A stretch of DNA of 64,000 bases from Thiovibrio frasassiensis (lineage in GTDB: Bacteria; Desulfobacterota; Desulfobulbia; Desulfobulbales; Desulfurivibrionaceae): positions 124,001 to 188,000 of the forward strand of contig NZ_JAPHEH010000001.1 of assembly GCF_029607905.1 (NCBI RefSeq), given 5' to 3'. The notes under the pieces were generated by a model. That model saw only the letters and a program-made list of their open reading frames with translations, made no database searches and was not told the origin of the DNA. Positions 12,099 through 32,501 of the stretch are shown here, piece after piece. Numbering within the stretch: position 1 is the first letter of the stretch; every line of letters starts with the position of its first letter. Both the position numbers and the translations under genes were made by a program.

Positions 12099-13133
12099 TT
12101 AATTTTCGGAATTGAGTTGTCCACATGCCGCCAAGACATCATCGCCCTTGGCACTTCTTATTAAGGTCGGGATCTTGAACGTATCCAAAACCTCTTTAAA
12201 CTTTTCAATTGTATCCAGATTCGGCCGCTTGTACTGCGATCCGGGAAAGGCGTTAAAGGGAATCAGGTTTATATAGGCACTTTTCCCTGCCAGCATGGTG
12301 CCCAGTTTTTCAGCATCCTCAGGAGAATCATTAAAATCTTTAATCAAAATATATTCATAGGTAACAAATTGTTTTCTGCTTAAAGATATCCGGTCAATAC
12401 AGGCCAACACTTCAGCCAGTGGATATTTCCGATTAATGGGAATAAGCTCGCTTCGCTTTTCTTCAAAGGGCGAATGAAGAGACAAGGCAAGGTTCACCCC
12501 GGGGATTTCCCGACTCCACCTTTGAAGTCCGGGGATATAACCAGAGGTGGAAATAGTAATCTTTTGAACCCCAATTGAAGTGCCGTGTTGTGACAAGAAT
12601 ATTTCGCACGCTTTTTTGACACCATCAAAATTATGTAACGGTTCGCCCTGGCCCATAAAAACAATATTTAAAATCCTCTCTTCTCCAACCCTGTTTTTCG
12701 CCAACCAACGCCAAGCCTGGAGAAACTGGCCAACAATCTCACCTGTGGTCAAATTCCTTTTAAGACCTTGTTTTCCGGTAGAGCAAAAAGAACAATTCAT
12801 CGCACAGCCAACCTGCGAGGAAAGACAGATAGAATATTTATTATGAAACGGGATAAGGACGGTCTCAATCTTGTGATTGTCTTGAAGCGTAAAAAGAAAT
12901 TTTACGGTCCGATCTTTTGACTCATGAACCGTATCGATTTCGGGGAGAGAGAAGTCGAAATTATCCTGAAAAAATGCCAAGGCGCCTTTTGCAATTTTCT
13001 CCTGGCATTGAGAACTTTCTTTTTTCTTGTAATGCCAATTAAAAAGAATTGATGCGGCCGAGTGGTTCAAATCATTCTGACCGAGAACCATTTCCAAATC
13101 AGAATAACTCAGATCATAAAAGGATTGTTTCAA
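12099..13133 (-). CDS. RlmN/Cfr-type radical-SAM rRNA methyltransferase-like protein
   Basis: A 344-residue radical-SAM enzyme of the family that methylates C2 (RlmN) or C8 (Cfr) of adenosine 2503 in 23S rRNA. The cluster motif CAMNCSFCSTGKQGLKRNL (near 111), GEPLHNFDGVKKA, SLHSPFEEKRSELIPINRKY, INLIPFNAFPGSQYKRP and the C-terminal catalytic cysteine in GDDVLAACGQL (near 334) are all present. The sequence reads MGQGEP where RlmN normally has MGMGEP. The gene is clearly AT-richer than its chromosomal neighbours and sits beside the cassette array, consistent with transfer. RlmN-like is more likely than Cfr because of CSTG/LKRNLT and the PINRKYP segment, but the site modified cannot be told by eye. 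Confidence 0.85.
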   Translation of the reverse strand: MKQSFYDLSYSDLEMVLGQNDLNHSAASILFNWHYKKKESSQCQEKIAKGALAFFQDNFDFSLPEIDTVHESKDRTVKFLFTLQDNHKIETVLIPFHNKYSICLSSQVGCAMNCSFCSTGKQGLKRNLTTGEIVGQFLQAWRWLAKNRVGEERILNIVFMGQGEPLHNFDGVKKACEIFLSQHGTSIGVQKITISTSGYIPGLQRWSREIPGVNLALSLHSPFEEKRSELIPINRKYPLAEVLACIDRISLSRKQFVTYEYILIKDFNDSPEDAEKLGTMLAGKSAYINLIPFNAFPGSQYKRPNLDTIEKFKEVLDTFKIPTLIRSAKGDDVLAACGQLNSEN

Positions 13134-13427: not shown

Positions 13428-13495
13428 ACATAACGTTTTAAACAATGGGCAAGGAACCACAGTCCACATAGTACCGCTTGATTTATTGGTTATGT
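13428..13495 (-). other. attC-like recombination site C
   Basis: On the minus strand the site begins with ACATAAC (R'' box, 13489-13495) and ends with GTTATGT (R' box, 13428-13434), 68 bp apart end to end. Inner complementary stretches (AATAAATCAAG against CATTGTTTAAAAC) allow partial folding. It follows the two-gene cassette ending at 13528. It is the weakest of the three sites, because the inner stem is imperfect. Confidence 0.55.
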
Positions 13496-13527
13496 GATCA
13501 TTTATTATTTTTAATTGCCTGTATCAT

Positions 13528-13917
13528 TTAGAGTGATTGGCACTGTATGTCGTGCATTCCATAAGAATAATCCACATGTTTTTCCCCATCTTTTACAATA
13601 AATGCCGTGCCAAGAATCTGTTGCTTCCCCTTTTTATTTTTGGGGTAAATAACAAACTCAGCCATGTCAGTTCCATACGTTTTTTTGTTATTAAAATGAA
13701 AAATAATATTATGAGCGTATCCATCATCGTGCTTTCTAGAATAAACAAGATTACCTTCAACAGAACGATCTATAAAGTCTGAAAGTTTGGCTTTACCGCT
13801 AACAGTATCCCAACCAATAATTGTATGCATAAACATGCCGTCTATTGAACAAGTTATATTTTCCGCATGTGCAGACACAGTTAAAAGTAACAGCAATAGT
13901 GCAAGAAAATACTTCAT
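13528..13917 (-). CDS. Secreted hypothetical protein in cassette 3
   Basis: A 129-residue protein with a clear signal peptide (KYFLALLLLLLTVSAHA, cleavage likely after residue 18) and a small mature domain rich in aromatic and basic residues. The mature part begins ENITCSID and ends DIQCQSL, so two cysteines could form a disulfide. The start codon overlaps the stop of the preceding gene in an ATGA arrangement, indicating coupled translation within one cassette. No known family is recognised. A periplasmic partner of the upstream protein is a reasonable guess. Confidence 0.7.
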   Translation of the reverse strand: MKYFLALLLLLLTVSAHAENITCSIDGMFMHTIIGWDTVSGKAKLSDFIDRSVEGNLVYSRKHDDGYAHNIIFHFNNKKTYGTDMAEFVIYPKNKKGKQQILGTAFIVKDGEKHVDYSYGMHDIQCQSL

Positions 13918-14354
13918 ATTTTTATCCTGTTTATTTTTAATAGTATGAAATTAAGCCAATCCGTTTTGCAAGGCTGATCCCACGTTGAGAAACTCTCAAT
14001 AATATTGACTTTGTTTTGTGGAATTGCTCCGTAGTTATATTCTTCATTTGATCCGATTAATGGCTTGGATTGATCTGGAAATTGGTCAATAGTTATATCG
14101 TAGATTAAATTGTCAATAGATAGCCAAAAATGGCTTTCATTTCTATACGTGCCAGTAACCAACAATATGTTTCTTTCAGGATATAATTTATTTGCAGTAG
14201 CCCCTAACAAGTATGATGCAAACTCACAACAATTTTTCGGGAAACCATGAATGTAAGGGATTCTTGTTGACTTATGACCAATAAATGACGGAAGGCTTTC
14301 CTGTATACCTTCTTCGATAAGAATCTCCCTGACTCGCTTAGATAAATTTTTCAG
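13914..14354 (-). CDS. Cysteine-protease/transglutaminase-like protein in cassette 3
   Basis: About 146 residues. The only in-frame start that keeps the conserved N-terminal part is CTG at 14354; a nearby ATG (14367-14365) is one base out of frame, so either a rare start is used or a single-base frameshift has occurred. A shorter TTG start at 14210 would remove the likely nucleophile. The sequence has KNCCEFASYLLGA (Cys), then ESHFWLSIDNLIYDIT (His) and DITIDQFPD (Asp), the Cys-His-Asp order of papain/transglutaminase-like folds. It is coupled by ATGA to the secreted protein gene. Substrate unknown. Confidence 0.55.
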   Translation of the reverse strand: MKNLSKRVREILIEEGIQESLPSFIGHKSTRIPYIHGFPKNCCEFASYLLGATANKLYPERNILLVTGTYRNESHFWLSIDNLIYDITIDQFPDQSKPLIGSNEEYNYGAIPQNKVNIIESFSTWDQPCKTDWLNFILLKINRIKI

Positions 14355-14373
14355 TTTATTGTCTCATAATTGC

Positions 14374-14446
14374 ACATAACGTTTGTGCTCACCCGCGCGA
14401 AGGGAGCGGTAGTAACCGTAGCGTTGGGTGCAGTACCTTGTTAGCT
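14374..14446 (-). other. attC-like recombination site B
   Basis: Minus strand: R'' AGCTAAC (14440-14446), then AAGGTACTGCACCC, an inner section, GGGTGAGCACAAAC and R' GTTATGT (14374-14380). The arms GCACCC/GGGTGAGC pair, as in bottom-strand attC hairpins. The stop codon of the membrane protein gene (14441-14443) lies within R''. This is the best-formed site of the array. Confidence 0.72.
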
Positions 14447-15337
14447 GATTACTCTAACGAAAAATAATATTGGCCAGGATAATAAACAAAGAAGCCCCAC
14501 AATGGTTAAAACTGGCAGCTCAAAAACCCACTTCGTTTCAAGAATAACAACTGCACGCTTGGACAGCCTTTTTGCGCCCCCGATGAAAAGAATAGAAAAA
14601 ACAAAGCAAAACCAAATAATTGATGTAGTGTACGTAGTCAATATAAACGAAAGCCAGACACTTCCATTGCCTTGAATTAGGGAATAATCGTTTTTTATAC
14701 ACTCCAAGCTCAAAAGAGCAAGATCTCCAGGAAGGATATATGCCGAATAGAGCGTCCCACTAGCATGCCCCGCAAACCAAATGAGCGAAGTTAAGAACAG
14801 GTCGAGTATAAATAGCGCTGGAAGATTCGCGTTTTTTTCTGTTGCTTTTTTCAATATCCACCCAGTTTCCGCTATTGATACGAAGTCTGGGAGTATATTA
14901 ATGCCTGATGAGTCGAAAAGAACGGCTGCAATATAAATATGATTTAACTTCTCGATAACACCATCAGAATAGCCGAGCCATTCGAAAAAGTAATTATTCT
15001 TGGAGAGATCTATATATTCAAACCCTCCGAGGTATATCGAAATGCGGGTGAGTATAATATAAAATATAAAGGTAAAAAGAATAGAGCTAACGATCGCGGA
15101 GATTAGACGCCGAAATGAAAATATCTTTTCACCATATACTAGATTAAAGAATTCGAGGAACTTTGCGTTTATTTGATCACGATCACTCCATTTTATAAGC
15201 TGCAAGTTCACCCACCAATCTGCTGTAAAATTCCGCCAATCCCTTAATCGGCCTGAAAAATGCAAATAGCCCTCAATGACTCCAGCCATCGCGAGAATCG
15301 GTTCCTGTATTGACCAAAGTTGAGAGTAGGTAATCAT
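14441..15337 (-). CDS. Multi-pass membrane protein in cassette 2
   Basis: A 298-residue protein with about four to six hydrophobic segments, for example AIVSSILFTFIFYIILT (near 85), LPALFILDLFLTSLIWFAGH (near 175), LSFILTTYTTSIIWFCFVFS (near 228) and LPVLTIVGLLCLLSWPILFF (near 274). The N-terminal 80 residues are soluble and aromatic. Strongly AT-rich with unusual codon use for this chromosome. No family is recognised. Its stop lies in attC B, and its start is 16 bases after the R' box of attC A. Confidence 0.7.
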   Translation of the reverse strand: MITYSQLWSIQEPILAMAGVIEGYLHFSGRLRDWRNFTADWWVNLQLIKWSDRDQINAKFLEFFNLVYGEKIFSFRRLISAIVSSILFTFIFYIILTRISIYLGGFEYIDLSKNNYFFEWLGYSDGVIEKLNHIYIAAVLFDSSGINILPDFVSIAETGWILKKATEKNANLPALFILDLFLTSLIWFAGHASGTLYSAYILPGDLALLSLECIKNDYSLIQGNGSVWLSFILTTYTTSIIWFCFVFSILFIGGAKRLSKRAVVILETKWVFELPVLTIVGLLCLLSWPILFFVRVIS

Positions 15338-15352
15338 TTTTTCCTTTTAGTC

Positions 15353-15420
15353 AGTTAACGACAGCGCTCAGGGAAAATTGGCCGGAGGCCAAATTTTCCC
15401 CCTGGGGCACATTGTTAGCC
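15353..15420 (-). other. attC-like recombination site A
   Basis: Minus strand: R'' GGCTAAC (15414-15420), a long foldable interior with GGGAAAATTTGGCC opposite GGCCAATTTTCCC, and R' GTTAACT (15353-15359). The stop codon of the cassette 1 gene (15415-15417) is inside R''. The stem is nearly perfect, with one unpaired base, as expected for an attC bottom-strand hairpin. Confidence 0.72.
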
Positions 15421-16077
15421 ATATATTTCGTTAAGGATTCTTACGAGTTCTTTTCCCCAGAACGTTAACGTGTAGCTTTGACTAATGTGATCAGGTTTTA
15501 CGTGCTCTCCAAAAAGTGCGTCAGGATTGTGTTTTATATATTCTAAATCAATTTTCACCATTCTGTACGGGAGGAAAAATGGCCCAATATCAACCATTAT
15601 GTTAGGGTTTACATGTCCATGGCGTAAATGGTGTAAGTTGAAAAAGAATGTTTTATTAACTGCCTCACACAGCAGCTCAAATGTGTCTTTTGATATCTCT
15701 TCACTAACATATCTCTTGAATAACTCGCCTGTTACCTTGGCTTTTTCGTCATCATCTGCTTTATCAAGAAGTATGAGAAGTTTTTCCCCAACCTTTTTTC
15801 GGTAACCCTCTTTATCCAATTTCTCGAGAAATTTGCTTAAAGACTCTTGGTCTACCGAATTTATTTGATTAAGGAATATTCCTATTTTTCTTATTAGATA
15901 TCTATCTCTAAATGCTAATACTGCCTTCCCTGTATTGGTCAAATTACTAATTATGGGGATTGATTTAATAAGTTCATCTTCGCAAATTTGGTCTAATATT
16001 ACTTCCGAGTTATTGATTAATAAATCTCGGCAGTTCTTATCCCTAAGTAAATCAATAAATTTTGAAGAGAGAGACAT
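15415..16077 (-). CDS. Uncharacterised helical protein in cassette 1
   Basis: A 220-residue, mostly helical, AT-rich gene product. An amphipathic segment (PIISNLTNTGKAVLAFRDRY, near 40) is followed by charged helices containing LLDKADDDEKAKVTGELF and EISKDTFELLCEAV, then a C-terminal strand YTLTFWGKELVRILNEIY. The central pattern resembles uncharacterised proteins found in accessory regions, but no named family can be claimed. The start at 16077 lies 15 bases after a GTTAGCC recombination box; the stop TAA is inside attC A, marking it as a cassette gene. Confidence 0.72.
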   Translation of the reverse strand: MSLSSKFIDLLRDKNCRDLLINNSEVILDQICEDELIKSIPIISNLTNTGKAVLAFRDRYLIRKIGIFLNQINSVDQESLSKFLEKLDKEGYRKKVGEKLLILLDKADDDEKAKVTGELFKRYVSEEISKDTFELLCEAVNKTFFFNLHHLRHGHVNPNIMVDIGPFFLPYRMVKIDLEYIKHNPDALFGEHVKPDHISQSYTLTFWGKELVRILNEIYG

Positions 16078-16092
16078 AGTTTTATTTTCTTA

Positions 16093-16283
16093 GGCTAACA
16101 ATAATATTATCGAGCTAGCTCGAGTTGTTTTTTTCTGCTCGATTTCTGGCCCTTTAATTGATTTTCCCGGGCAAGTTTTGAGCATTTTTTCACTTAAATA
16201 GCCACATATCCACCCCGCAAGGGGGTGTTATCGAGCTGGCTACATAATTCCGGCTAAAATTATCCGGGGGTGTTATATCTCTA
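16093..16283. repeat. Repeat-rich flank of the cassette array
   Basis: This gap of 306 bases between the first cassette gene and the M23-like gene carries no gene. It contains a near-identical 14-mer TTATCGAGCTAGCT / TTATCGAGCTGGCT (16107 and 16228), an 11-bp direct repeat GGGGGTGTTAT (16221 and 16266), a hairpin TAGCCA...CACCCC-GCAA-GGGGTG...TGGCTA (16199-16242) and a TCGAGCTAGCTCGA palindrome (16110-16123). The GGCTAAC box at 16093 is the array boundary. It may be a decayed attI or attC. Confidence 0.5.
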
Positions 16284-16383
16284 CCTGACACCATAGAGCA
16301 ATTCAAGATTATTATCCTGAGAATGGCCTGAACAAAACACCGGCCTCGACACCTCACCTTCTTCCTCGCCTGACCCAATACCC

Positions 16384-16947
16384 ATGATCCCGGACTCCCA
16401 ATTTACCAGCACCTTCCTGAACCTGAACCACCTTGCCGGAGTATGCCCCGGCTGGCTCTTCCTCCCCGGCATGCTCTTTCAGAACACCGAAGCGTGGTGG
16501 AAACACAGCTCCCGCCAAACCCCGCACGAAGGTATTGACCTGCTCTTTCTGACAGACCGCGATGGACAGCGGCAGGAGCTGCCGAAGCAGGGTCTGATTC
16601 CGCCGCTCTGGGATGGTGAGGTGATTGCGCTGTTCGACGATTTTCTCGGCAGCACCGTGGTGGTCCGGCATTCGGTGATGGATGGGCAGGGGTGGAGGCT
16701 TGTTTCCCTCTATGGCCATGTTCACCCTTTGGTGGAATGCGGAGCGCAGGTTTGTGCAGATAAACCGCTGGCAACGGTTGCAACAGGCAAGGTGCGGGGA
16801 TCTTCGGCCCCGCCGGATCATCTCCACCTCTCCCTTGGCTGGCTGGCGCCGGGCTGGCGGGCTACGGAGCTGGAGTGGCCGACCCTCTGGCGCAACCCCG
16901 GCATCGTGCTGATCGATCCCCTGCCCTTGATTCAGCCCAAGGCGTGA
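16384..16947 (+). CDS. M23-like (lysostaphin-type) metallopeptidase domain protein
   Basis: A 187-residue protein. The zinc-peptidase signature is visible as HEGIDLLFL (His and Asp, near 48), LYGHVHP (near 110) and the paired histidines DHLHLSLGWL (near 145), the usual H...D...HXH order of peptidoglycan endopeptidases. No signal peptide or LysM domain is present, and the spacing is short, so it may be degraded or act on another substrate. Its 3' end overlaps the CofD-like gene by 16 bases in convergent orientation. No clear ribosome-binding site precedes 16384. Confidence 0.65.
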   Translation: MIPDSQFTSTFLNLNHLAGVCPGWLFLPGMLFQNTEAWWKHSSRQTPHEGIDLLFLTDRDGQRQELPKQGLIPPLWDGEVIALFDDFLGSTVVVRHSVMDGQGWRLVSLYGHVHPLVECGAQVCADKPLATVATGKVRGSSAPPDHLHLSLGWLAPGWRATELEWPTLWRNPGIVLIDPLPLIQPKA

Positions 16948-30866: not shown

Positions 30867-31760
30867 TCATCGCAACATCTCCGGCGCAAGGAGCATAACC
30901 AGACCGAGTCCGCTCAGGACAACGCCGCCCAGCAGCTTACCGTATTTGGCATAGCCGCTGCCGAGCGTGGTTTCACAAGCAAAGGCGGCCAGGGAGAAAA
31001 TAATGAGGTCATCGAGCATGAAAAAAAAGTCATAGAGCAGGATATAGCCGTAGTACTGAAACGCAGAGAGCGGCCGCAGGGAGAGGGTATGGGTGAAGAC
31101 GGCGGGCAATCCGGCCGAGCAGGCAAACTCGATGGTGTTCACCGTAAAGGCCAGGGCAATAACGCCCAAAAGGGAGGCCAGGGAAACCGGCGCGGCAACG
31201 AGGCGCTCCATCCTGTCCATGGTCCGCTGCTTGAATCCGGGGTTGCCCACCGCACAGACCGGCGCACCCCGGGTCATAACAAAGGAGCGCAGGTCCAGCA
31301 CTCCGACCACCAGTGCGGTGCAACCGATGACAATGGTCACCGGCCGCAAGAAACCGATGAAGAGGAAGACATTGAGCCAGGCGGTCATAAAGAGGAAATA
31401 GAGCACCCCCGAGGCGAGGACAAAGGACCCCACCAGCAGCCAGATCTTTTTGCGCTCCTGCAAGGTGACGAGCAAGGAAAGCAGATAGACCAAGGCCCAC
31501 ATGGCGCAGGGATTGAAGCCATCGGCAAGGCCAAGCACTACGGCGAGACCCGGCAGAGAGAGATCGGCAAGGGAGACATTGCCGAACACCGTCAGCGACA
31601 CCGAATTCGGATGCCAGACCTCCGATGGGGCGGCAGCAAGCCCCTGCGCCAAAGCAAAAGACGGCTCCGCCGGCCGACCGCCCAAGGCACTGCCCGGCAC
31701 AACCGATGCGACCAGACAGCAGCAGACCCCGAGCAAAAGAAAACGCACCGCACCCCCCAT
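30867..31760 (-). CDS. CcdA/DsbD-like membrane protein
   Basis: A 297-residue polytopic protein with a signal peptide or first helix (FLLLGVCCCLVASVVPGSAL). GLADGFNPCAMWALVYLLSL near 77 carries the proline-cysteine helix typical of DsbD/CcdA thiol-reductant transporters, and a second candidate cysteine is in NTIEFACSAGLPAVF near 210. GGAGGGATTGCC precedes the start. No thioredoxin or cytochrome c maturation gene is adjacent, so its partner is unknown. It would pass reducing equivalents across the inner membrane to periplasmic thiols. Confidence 0.78.
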   Translation of the reverse strand: MGGAVRFLLLGVCCCLVASVVPGSALGGRPAEPSFALAQGLAAAPSEVWHPNSVSLTVFGNVSLADLSLPGLAVVLGLADGFNPCAMWALVYLLSLLVTLQERKKIWLLVGSFVLASGVLYFLFMTAWLNVFLFIGFLRPVTIVIGCTALVVGVLDLRSFVMTRGAPVCAVGNPGFKQRTMDRMERLVAAPVSLASLLGVIALAFTVNTIEFACSAGLPAVFTHTLSLRPLSAFQYYGYILLYDFFFMLDDLIIFSLAAFACETTLGSGYAKYGKLLGGVVLSGLGLVMLLAPEMLR

Positions 31761-31843
31761 GGCAATCCCTCCAGTGTGTGATTACACTATGAGTATACCG
31801 CATCGGGAATCGGGTCCGGGGAAGAAAAGAGACGGATTGGCCC

Positions 31844-31890
31844 TTGACAATAAGGCGGAGCAGCGATAAATTGTACCAAACGGTCAGTTT
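31844..31890 (+). promoter_or_regulatory. Promoter and possible operator of the TetR gene
   Basis: A perfect TTGACA (31844-31849), a 17-base spacer and TAAATT (31867-31872), followed at once by an imperfect palindrome AAACGGTCAGTTT (31878-31890) that could be the TetR operator and would give autorepression. Confidence 0.5.
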
Positions 31891-31913
31891 ATTTTACCCT
31901 CAAGGAGCAGGCA

Positions 31914-32501
31914 ATGTCCACAACCAGCAAGGGCGAGAAAACCCGAGAGCACATCCTGAAGACAACCCGGAAAATCCTCGTGACGCAGGGGTTTCACAAC
32001 ACCAGCATCAGCGCGGTCATCGCGGCCACCGGGGTCAAGAAAGGGAACCTCTACTACCATTTCACCAGCAAGGAGGATCTCGGCCTCGCGGTGCTTGAGG
32101 ATGCCAAGGATGAATTCTTTTCCTTTCTCGCCAAAGCGCTCACCGGGAGCGACCCAGTCGAAAAAATCATCAATTCCTGCAAGGCGATCTTTAGGGAACA
32201 GGAAAAAAACAATTTTGTCGGGGGGTGCCTGTTCGGCAACACCGCCCTGGAGATGGCCGACAGCAATCAGAACTTTTCCCAGGTTATCCAAGAGGTTTTC
32301 AGCCGCTGGATCGAGATACTGGAAGAGCATCTTGCGGAAGCAAGGAAAACAGGGTTGCTGCCGCCGGCCAGCCAACCCCGCCTCTTGGCCAAAACCGTGG
32401 TGGCGACCTTGGAGGGAGCGATCATGATCTCCAGGGTCAGCAAAGAAAAAAATGACCTGAACGATTTCCTTGCCGCCATCACCGGCTTGCTGGACCGGTG
32501 A
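31914..32501 (+). CDS. TetR/AcrR-family transcriptional repressor
   Basis: A 195-residue regulator. The N-terminal helix-turn-helix is unmistakable: TREHILKTTRKILVTQGFHN, TSISAVIAATGVKKGNLYYH and FTSKEDLGLAVLE. The ligand domain includes GGCLFGNTALEMADSN, the pattern of the AcuR/NemR-like group, in which a cysteine may sense electrophiles. CAAGGAGCAGGCA is its ribosome-binding site. It lies divergent from the CcdA-like gene (154 bases away) and upstream of a lipoprotein gene; either may be the target. Confidence 0.9.
   Translation: MSTTSKGEKTREHILKTTRKILVTQGFHNTSISAVIAATGVKKGNLYYHFTSKEDLGLAVLEDAKDEFFSFLAKALTGSDPVEKIINSCKAIFREQEKNNFVGGCLFGNTALEMADSNQNFSQVIQEVFSRWIEILEEHLAEARKTGLLPPASQPRLLAKTVVATLEGAIMISRVSKEKNDLNDFLAAITGLLDR

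Follow-up and report, generated by a model that had tools for sequence, protein, structure and literature searches.

A three-cassette array without an integrase gene adjoins one of six attI-like platforms in Thiovibrio frasassiensis

We analyzed a 64,000-nucleotide stretch of the Thiovibrio frasassiensis genome (the window, G000:C1:124001-188000; the genome, G000, comprises 2.84 Mb in 3 contigs and is 95% complete), focusing on a region that an earlier note, made from the sequence alone, had read as an integron-type cassette array without an integrase. The limits given there, positions 13428 and 16099, are correct at single-base resolution: cassette 1 is preceded by a G^TT whose G is 16099, and the third R' box finishes at 13428. 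Between the G^TT points at 16099 and 13434 lie three cassettes with four ORFs, all on the minus strand and together spanning positions 13528 to 16077. The region is AT rich, as had been noted, with a GC content of 0.34 to 0.39 in the cassette ORFs versus 0.57 for the whole window. Three sites on the minus strand match the attC plan R''-spacer-L''-loop-L'-spacer-R', namely site A (15353 to 15420, whose folded bottom strand is the plus strand), site B (14374 to 14446), and a degenerate site C (13428 to 13495; R'' ACATAAC, R' GTTATGT) that closes the array. Cassette 1 (15354 to 16098, minus strand) runs from TTAGCC to the G of the R' box of site A, and the reverse complement of its R'', GGCTAAC, is identical to its first 7-mer, GTTAGCC. 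The earlier claim that the stop codon lies inside R'' in two cassettes also holds, with a TAA at 15415 to 15417 in cassette 1 (GGCTAAC) and at 14441 to 14443 in cassette 2 (AGCTAAC); the stop of cassette 3 is upstream of R'' and not inside it.

The ORF of cassette 1 (15415 to 16077) encodes a helical protein of 220 amino acids and that of cassette 2 (14441 to 15337) a 298-amino-acid protein with hydrophobic segments, both of unknown family. Cassette 3 contains two ORFs that overlap by ATGA, the first (13914 to 14363) encoding up to 149 amino acids without an ATG start and the second (13528 to 13917) encoding 129 amino acids with a signal-peptide-like start. None of the four ORFs matches a known family above the curated cutoff, in agreement with the view that these cassette genes are undescribed. 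The cassette 1 ORF has three distant relatives in the phylum (25 to 30% identity), one of them adjoining a gene with an N6-methylase-type NPPY motif; its structure model gave no meaningful match in the PDB, and plasmids contained no match to it. For the first ORF of cassette 3 we obtained a weak, below-cutoff match to YunG (E = 0.0044), a low-confidence predicted structure (pLDDT of 46), and three weak plasmid matches from Pseudomonas (34%), with no annotated cassette context at the single Pseudomonas plasmid locus examined.

A scan of the window with Rfam returned nothing at the gathering thresholds and no match to an attC family; therefore, we built our own covariance model, R1, from 36 attC sites located beside IntI genes of other members of the phylum, leaving the sites of the window out of the training set. 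A trained model was used because a simple pattern and fold search was too unspecific, with 43 matches in the window, and was rejected. The base pairs of R1 covary, with 96 cells changed on both sides compared with a mean of 42 in shuffles. On the 64 kb, R1 found exactly two matches, site B (30.4 bits; E = 3.5e-4) and site A (18.9 bits; E = 0.09), where the E values are rough. Run without filters on 3.5 kb, the model again placed these two sites at the top, with lower scores of 18.5 and 12.2 bits. Site C was detected in neither scan and scored at background, so that two of the three proposed sites stand out from the background. The fold z-scores against shuffles were −2.39 for site A, −0.34 for site B, and +0.79 for site C, the last thus folding no better than shuffled sequence; its R'' and R' boxes are complementary at 7 of 7 positions. 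Across the G000 genome, R1 yielded at least three further matches elsewhere (150 of 869 candidates scored).

Although site C is at background in the model, it sits at an exact junction between species. Beyond the array, homology of 90 to 95% to G399 and to two loci of G400, both relatives within the genus, starts exactly at GTTATGTTTACAAA, the R' box of site C, and the sequence before this box differs among G000, G399, and the two G400 loci. The right junction is located at a G^TT (G^TTATGT) in three species and four loci. Since homology resumes exactly at the R' box of site C, the right junction can be placed at this G^TT (13434) independently of how well the hairpin is preserved.

On the other side of the array, the ∼200 bp upstream of cassette 1 are a repeat that ends in a conserved attI-like core, ACTCGAGCTAGCTCGATAATATTATTG^TT. 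This element, referred to as a platform here, was first seen when two further attC matches in G000 turned out to have almost the same upstream sequence as the window array. In the window it covers ∼200 to 240 bp (16093 to 16330, minus strand, with a fuzzy left edge) and consists of a decayed intI start, the intI-attI intergenic region, and the attI-like core (ACTCGAGCTAGCTCGATAATATTATTGTT; 16097 to 16125, minus strand), with the crossover after the G at 16099. The intI 5' stub (ATA GAG CAA TTC AAG and onward; 16293 to 16325, plus strand) has lost its start codon. G000 contains six platforms, at C1:140093 (the window), 194407 (194k), 225556 (225k), 424324 (424k), 683164 (683k), and 2154462 (2154k), the last being more diverged than the others. 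The six copies align up to ACTCGAGCTAGCTCGATAATATTATTG^TTA and diverge beyond, with cassettes behind each G^TT. The core is identical in four of the six, and the rest of the element shows 85 to 91% identity to the window copy in the four nearest copies; the identity of the core despite the diverged remainder suggests selection or recent use. Over 29 copies from the genus, the ∼29-nucleotide core is the most conserved part of the element, mostly at ∼90% or more, and conservation collapses directly after GTT.

Two further features of the element were observed. The core contains a palindrome, CGAGCTAGCTCG, that is terminator-like on both strands, and its TTATCGAGCTAGCT (16110 to 16123) recurs 121 bp away inside the platform (16228 to 16241); palindrome and repeat may have an additional regulatory role. 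The left edge of the platform was considered as an IntI excision site and dropped, as its GTT motifs face the wrong way.

The first bases (TTRRRY) of a newly inserted cassette circle derive from its R' box, the pairing partner of the R'' of the same cassette. We examined this register in the 16 platforms followed by an attC that the model had detected. In 12 of them, the 7-mer closing the core is the reverse complement of the R'' of the first attC, and 58 of the 64 variable positions agree; 200,000 shuffles gave 29.7 on average and 48 at most. In G000 itself, the first cassette bases match their own R'' at 7 of 7 positions for all six platforms; R1 gives no score for the short attC of the sixth (2154k), which was therefore inspected manually. 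Given this agreement, the core ends exactly at the recombination point, and the first cassette starts at the G^TT crossover, as is the case for an attI site.

A search of G000 for the IntI family, together with a protein search using the IntI of G409, a member of the genus, identified only XerC and XerD. Thus, the check for integrases elsewhere in the genome came back empty, and what is left of intI at the window platform is the decayed 5' stub, which distinguishes the locus from a complete integron. An overlooked intI in this 95%-complete genome is possible but unlikely. With two R1 matches, a third site that is degenerate but located at the exact junction, and no integron integrase nearby or in the whole genome as searched, the array is by definition a CALIN and thus of a known kind. 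The attC matches, the junctions, the register, and the lack of IntI in the genome bear out the earlier description as an integrase-less array; that description is incomplete, since the array is no isolated remnant but adjoins an attI-like platform that carries an intI 5' stub, and the genome has six such platforms. Apart from the platforms, an AT-rich island at G000:C1:∼324000-327361 has an attC match of 23.4 bits and, upstream, a second attC-like site, with a stop codon in R''; as no attI-like core was found near it, this island is a CALIN without a platform.

The stub has an intact counterpart in a relative, G409, which encodes a complete integron integrase (TIGR02249; 435 bits, with a cutoff of 265). 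The ATG and the first 15 codons of this intI lie inside the left part of the platform repeat. The G409 contig ends 82 to 89 bp into the repeat, before the core, and for this reason we can only infer the full linkage of intI, core, and cassettes. The window stub corresponds by homology to the initial codons of the G409 IntI (MEHYKQF and onward). The best-preserved stub, that of the 2154k copy, reads MEQYKQFILSRRLVT (E = 4e-7); the other G000 copies carry decayed stubs, and in that of the window the ATG itself has become ATA. A second relative, G401, has an integrase 97% identical to that of G409 and broken at a contig end: at G401:C10:86427-87585, this cognate intI is cut at about codon 27 by an unrelated sequence that resembles an insertion sequence end at the contig edge. 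A flag for an internal TGA in the G401 and G409 genes was discarded, as it merely marked the natural stop. The next-closest integrases (54%; G401:C28 and G410:C74) are accompanied by a related attI motif, CGCGCTAGATAATAATATA^GTTAT, which is absent from more distant integrases.

Copies of the platform are present in 11 of 17 genus genomes (G000 included) and in none of 10 genomes from other genera of the family. Among 84,980 species genomes (∼85,000), the search for the core returned 16 stretches, all of them in records that match genomes of the genus, and viral contigs did not contain the core. The genus is uncultured, and the core-bearing records are draft genomes labeled as Desulfobulbaceae (UBA2273) or as uncultured Deltaproteobacteria or Proteobacteria.

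Every G000 platform has a counterpart at the same locus in at least one other species, and the cargo differs where it could be read, often being defense-like; most of these relatives are draft metagenome-assembled genomes, some of them incomplete or contaminated, and in several the contigs stop before the cassette content is complete. The window locus lies between a peptidase-like gene (16384 to 16947) and rlmN. At this locus, G399 carries DUF4062, SLATT, and ThsB-TIR genes, the platform of G401 is followed by a TIR gene and then the contig end, and G400 provides two further cargo versions. The gene content of the locus is therefore not fixed among relatives, with different cassettes in G399, the two G400 loci, G401, and G409, and on this point, as on the attC scores, the outcome favors the earlier reading. 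Of the other platforms, 424k (an aldo/keto reductase locus) has counterparts in G401 and G404, 225k (the ykgJ locus) in G398, G400, and G395, 683k (at a pseudouridine-synthase-like gene) in G396, 194k (at an amidohydrolase-like gene) in G398, and 2154k (at ogt) in G396. The island behind 683k includes a Phd/YefM-ParE toxin-antitoxin pair that is 96% and 91% identical to a pair on a different, nonorthologous platform of G396, which suggests movement between slots, judging from the sequences. A search with an empty-site pattern did not find a clean empty platform. At the ykgJ locus of G400 (C15), we observed a near-empty platform with a short leftover between the core and the flanking gene.

Some observations concern the surroundings of the array. 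The rlmN gene beside it (12099 to 13133) has a GC content of only 41%; it adjoins the peptidase gene in G000, G399, and G400 and was not found within the examined stretches of G408, G396, and G410, so that rlmN itself may be a newcomer. Farther away, a strong AT skew (0.42) is confined to a single 1-kb step of the window (31001 to 32000).

Across the genus, the slot cargo includes ThsB-TIR, TIR, SLATT, FRG, HEPN-type, and toxin-antitoxin genes. In G399 (L168:1918-4017), the DUF4062, SLATT/DUF4231, and ThsB-TIR genes are grouped on the platform of the window locus, and this group is a candidate for a Thoeris-like or other new defense set. The 424k platform (L101:2037-4785) carries genes for MauJ/DzbB-like, DUF4145-like, and HEPN pEK499_p136 proteins, followed by a Phd/YefM antitoxin gene. 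The 194k platform (L100:1616-2870) encodes a 242-amino-acid protein without a family and a pyrimidine-dimer-glycosylase-type protein; the ORF of the latter runs through the attC and may be read across the cassette boundary. Because defense-type genes (FRG, HEPN, DzbB-like, ThsB, and TIR) occupy the same kind of slots, a role in defense is a fair guess, and no more, for the four unnamed ORFs of the window, none of which has a homologue on any other platform compared.

Based on sequence comparison, we favor the explanation, at a probability of roughly 0.78, that the platforms are dispersed attI sites at which a cognate integrase, now lost from this genome, formerly acted in trans. The window array would then represent three cassettes that entered an attI-like site separated from its intI. 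An IntI of the G409 type, encoded elsewhere and acting in trans, would join the folded bottom strand of the attC of a circular cassette to the G^TT of the platform, and cassettes would have been gained and lost at fixed chromosomal slots during the divergence of the species. In G000 the integrase would since have been lost or be supplied only from outside, and the arrays are therefore probably frozen now. We extend this only tentatively, and at slightly less than even odds, to a multi-slot integron, in which many attI platforms stayed at fixed positions through the divergence of the genus and receive, or once received, their cassettes in trans through one integrase; there would then be several independently placed first-cassette positions in place of the usual one, with much phage-defense-like cargo. 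Under this reading, the strong conservation of the core would reflect selection that maintains the slots even without intI.

Platforms at shared loci would also be compatible with inherited copies of old integrons, each of which has lost its intI. That the six platforms of G000 are former complete integrons, whose own intI genes were deleted one by one with no single trans-acting integrase involved, is nevertheless unlikely in our view. Such a history would explain the stubs at the platforms, and some members of the genus do have several intI genes (three in G401 and four in G403), but the longest stubs (2154k, 194k, and 683k) stop near the same place, at about codon 15, which points to the copying of one truncated element, and cognate-type integrases are limited to one in G409 and one in G401, against six platforms in G000. 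We consider it quite improbable that an integrase from elsewhere inserted cassettes at non-classical genomic (attG) sites and that the repeat merely holds a good target. IntI can insert at attG sites, and CALINs can arise in this way, as cited in a passage of PMC12444791, with G^TT as the sole strict requirement; however, attG sites are described as scattered and divergent, whereas G000 has a conserved ∼200-bp element with an intI stub that abuts intI in G409 and whose most conserved part stops precisely at the crossover point in 29 copies. Finally, AT-rich genes with chance inverted repeats would account for the background score of site C and for a site B that folds no better than shuffles, but the only two model matches in 64 kb are both at the claimed places, and the register agreement together with the exact junctions across species refutes this explanation for practical purposes.

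Dispersed attI platforms served in trans would bear on the origin and continued activity of CALINs, which is an open question; according to a passage of PMC9024848, CALINs are proposed to be degraded integrons. With integrase-free arrays on recognizable attI copies, at shared loci and with exchanged cargo, the genus allows a direct test of cassette loading in trans. The presence of several comparable slots in each genome is also an aid to finding new genes, and unnamed cassette genes such as the four in the window are fair candidates for defense functions, given the slot cargo across the genus.

In the open literature (PMC; subscription journals were outside the scope of the search), we came across no account of attI platforms dispersed without an integrase. 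The window array shares with CALINs as defined by IntegronFinder (PMC9024848) the presence of two or more attC sites, the lack of a nearby intI, and the chromosomal location, and it differs in having a recognizable attI-like platform with an intI stub and in being one of six such islands in its genome, at loci shared with relatives. As far as the excerpts of that paper go, the CALIN definition does not include attI, and attI sites outside class 1 were not searched for; attI is described there, and in an excerpt of PMC9668308, as typically single, near intI, and poorly described outside class 1. The CALINs of Xanthomonas are likewise integrase-less arrays at positions common to species of a genus, and the excerpts of PMC12444791 make no mention of an attI platform or a shared upstream repeat. 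Insertions at attG sites (Loot et al. 2024, as cited in passages of PMC12444791 and PMC12901181) resemble the G000 arrays in placing cassettes on the chromosome away from intI with a G^TT crossover, but these sites are described as divergent and widely scattered, whereas G000 reuses one conserved element. The truncated attI (delta-attI) cassettes of mobile integrons, in the parts of PMC12901181 that treat them, are also partial attI copies off their usual place; they stand inside arrays in place of attC, whereas the G000 platforms precede arrays of their own on the chromosome and include the start of intI. With sedentary chromosomal integrons, the G000 arrays have in common an attI-type site, attC cassettes, cassette turnover, and, in the relative G409, a cognate IntI, but where those integrons have one attI and one array beside intI, G000 has many short arrays on detached attI copies and lacks intI.
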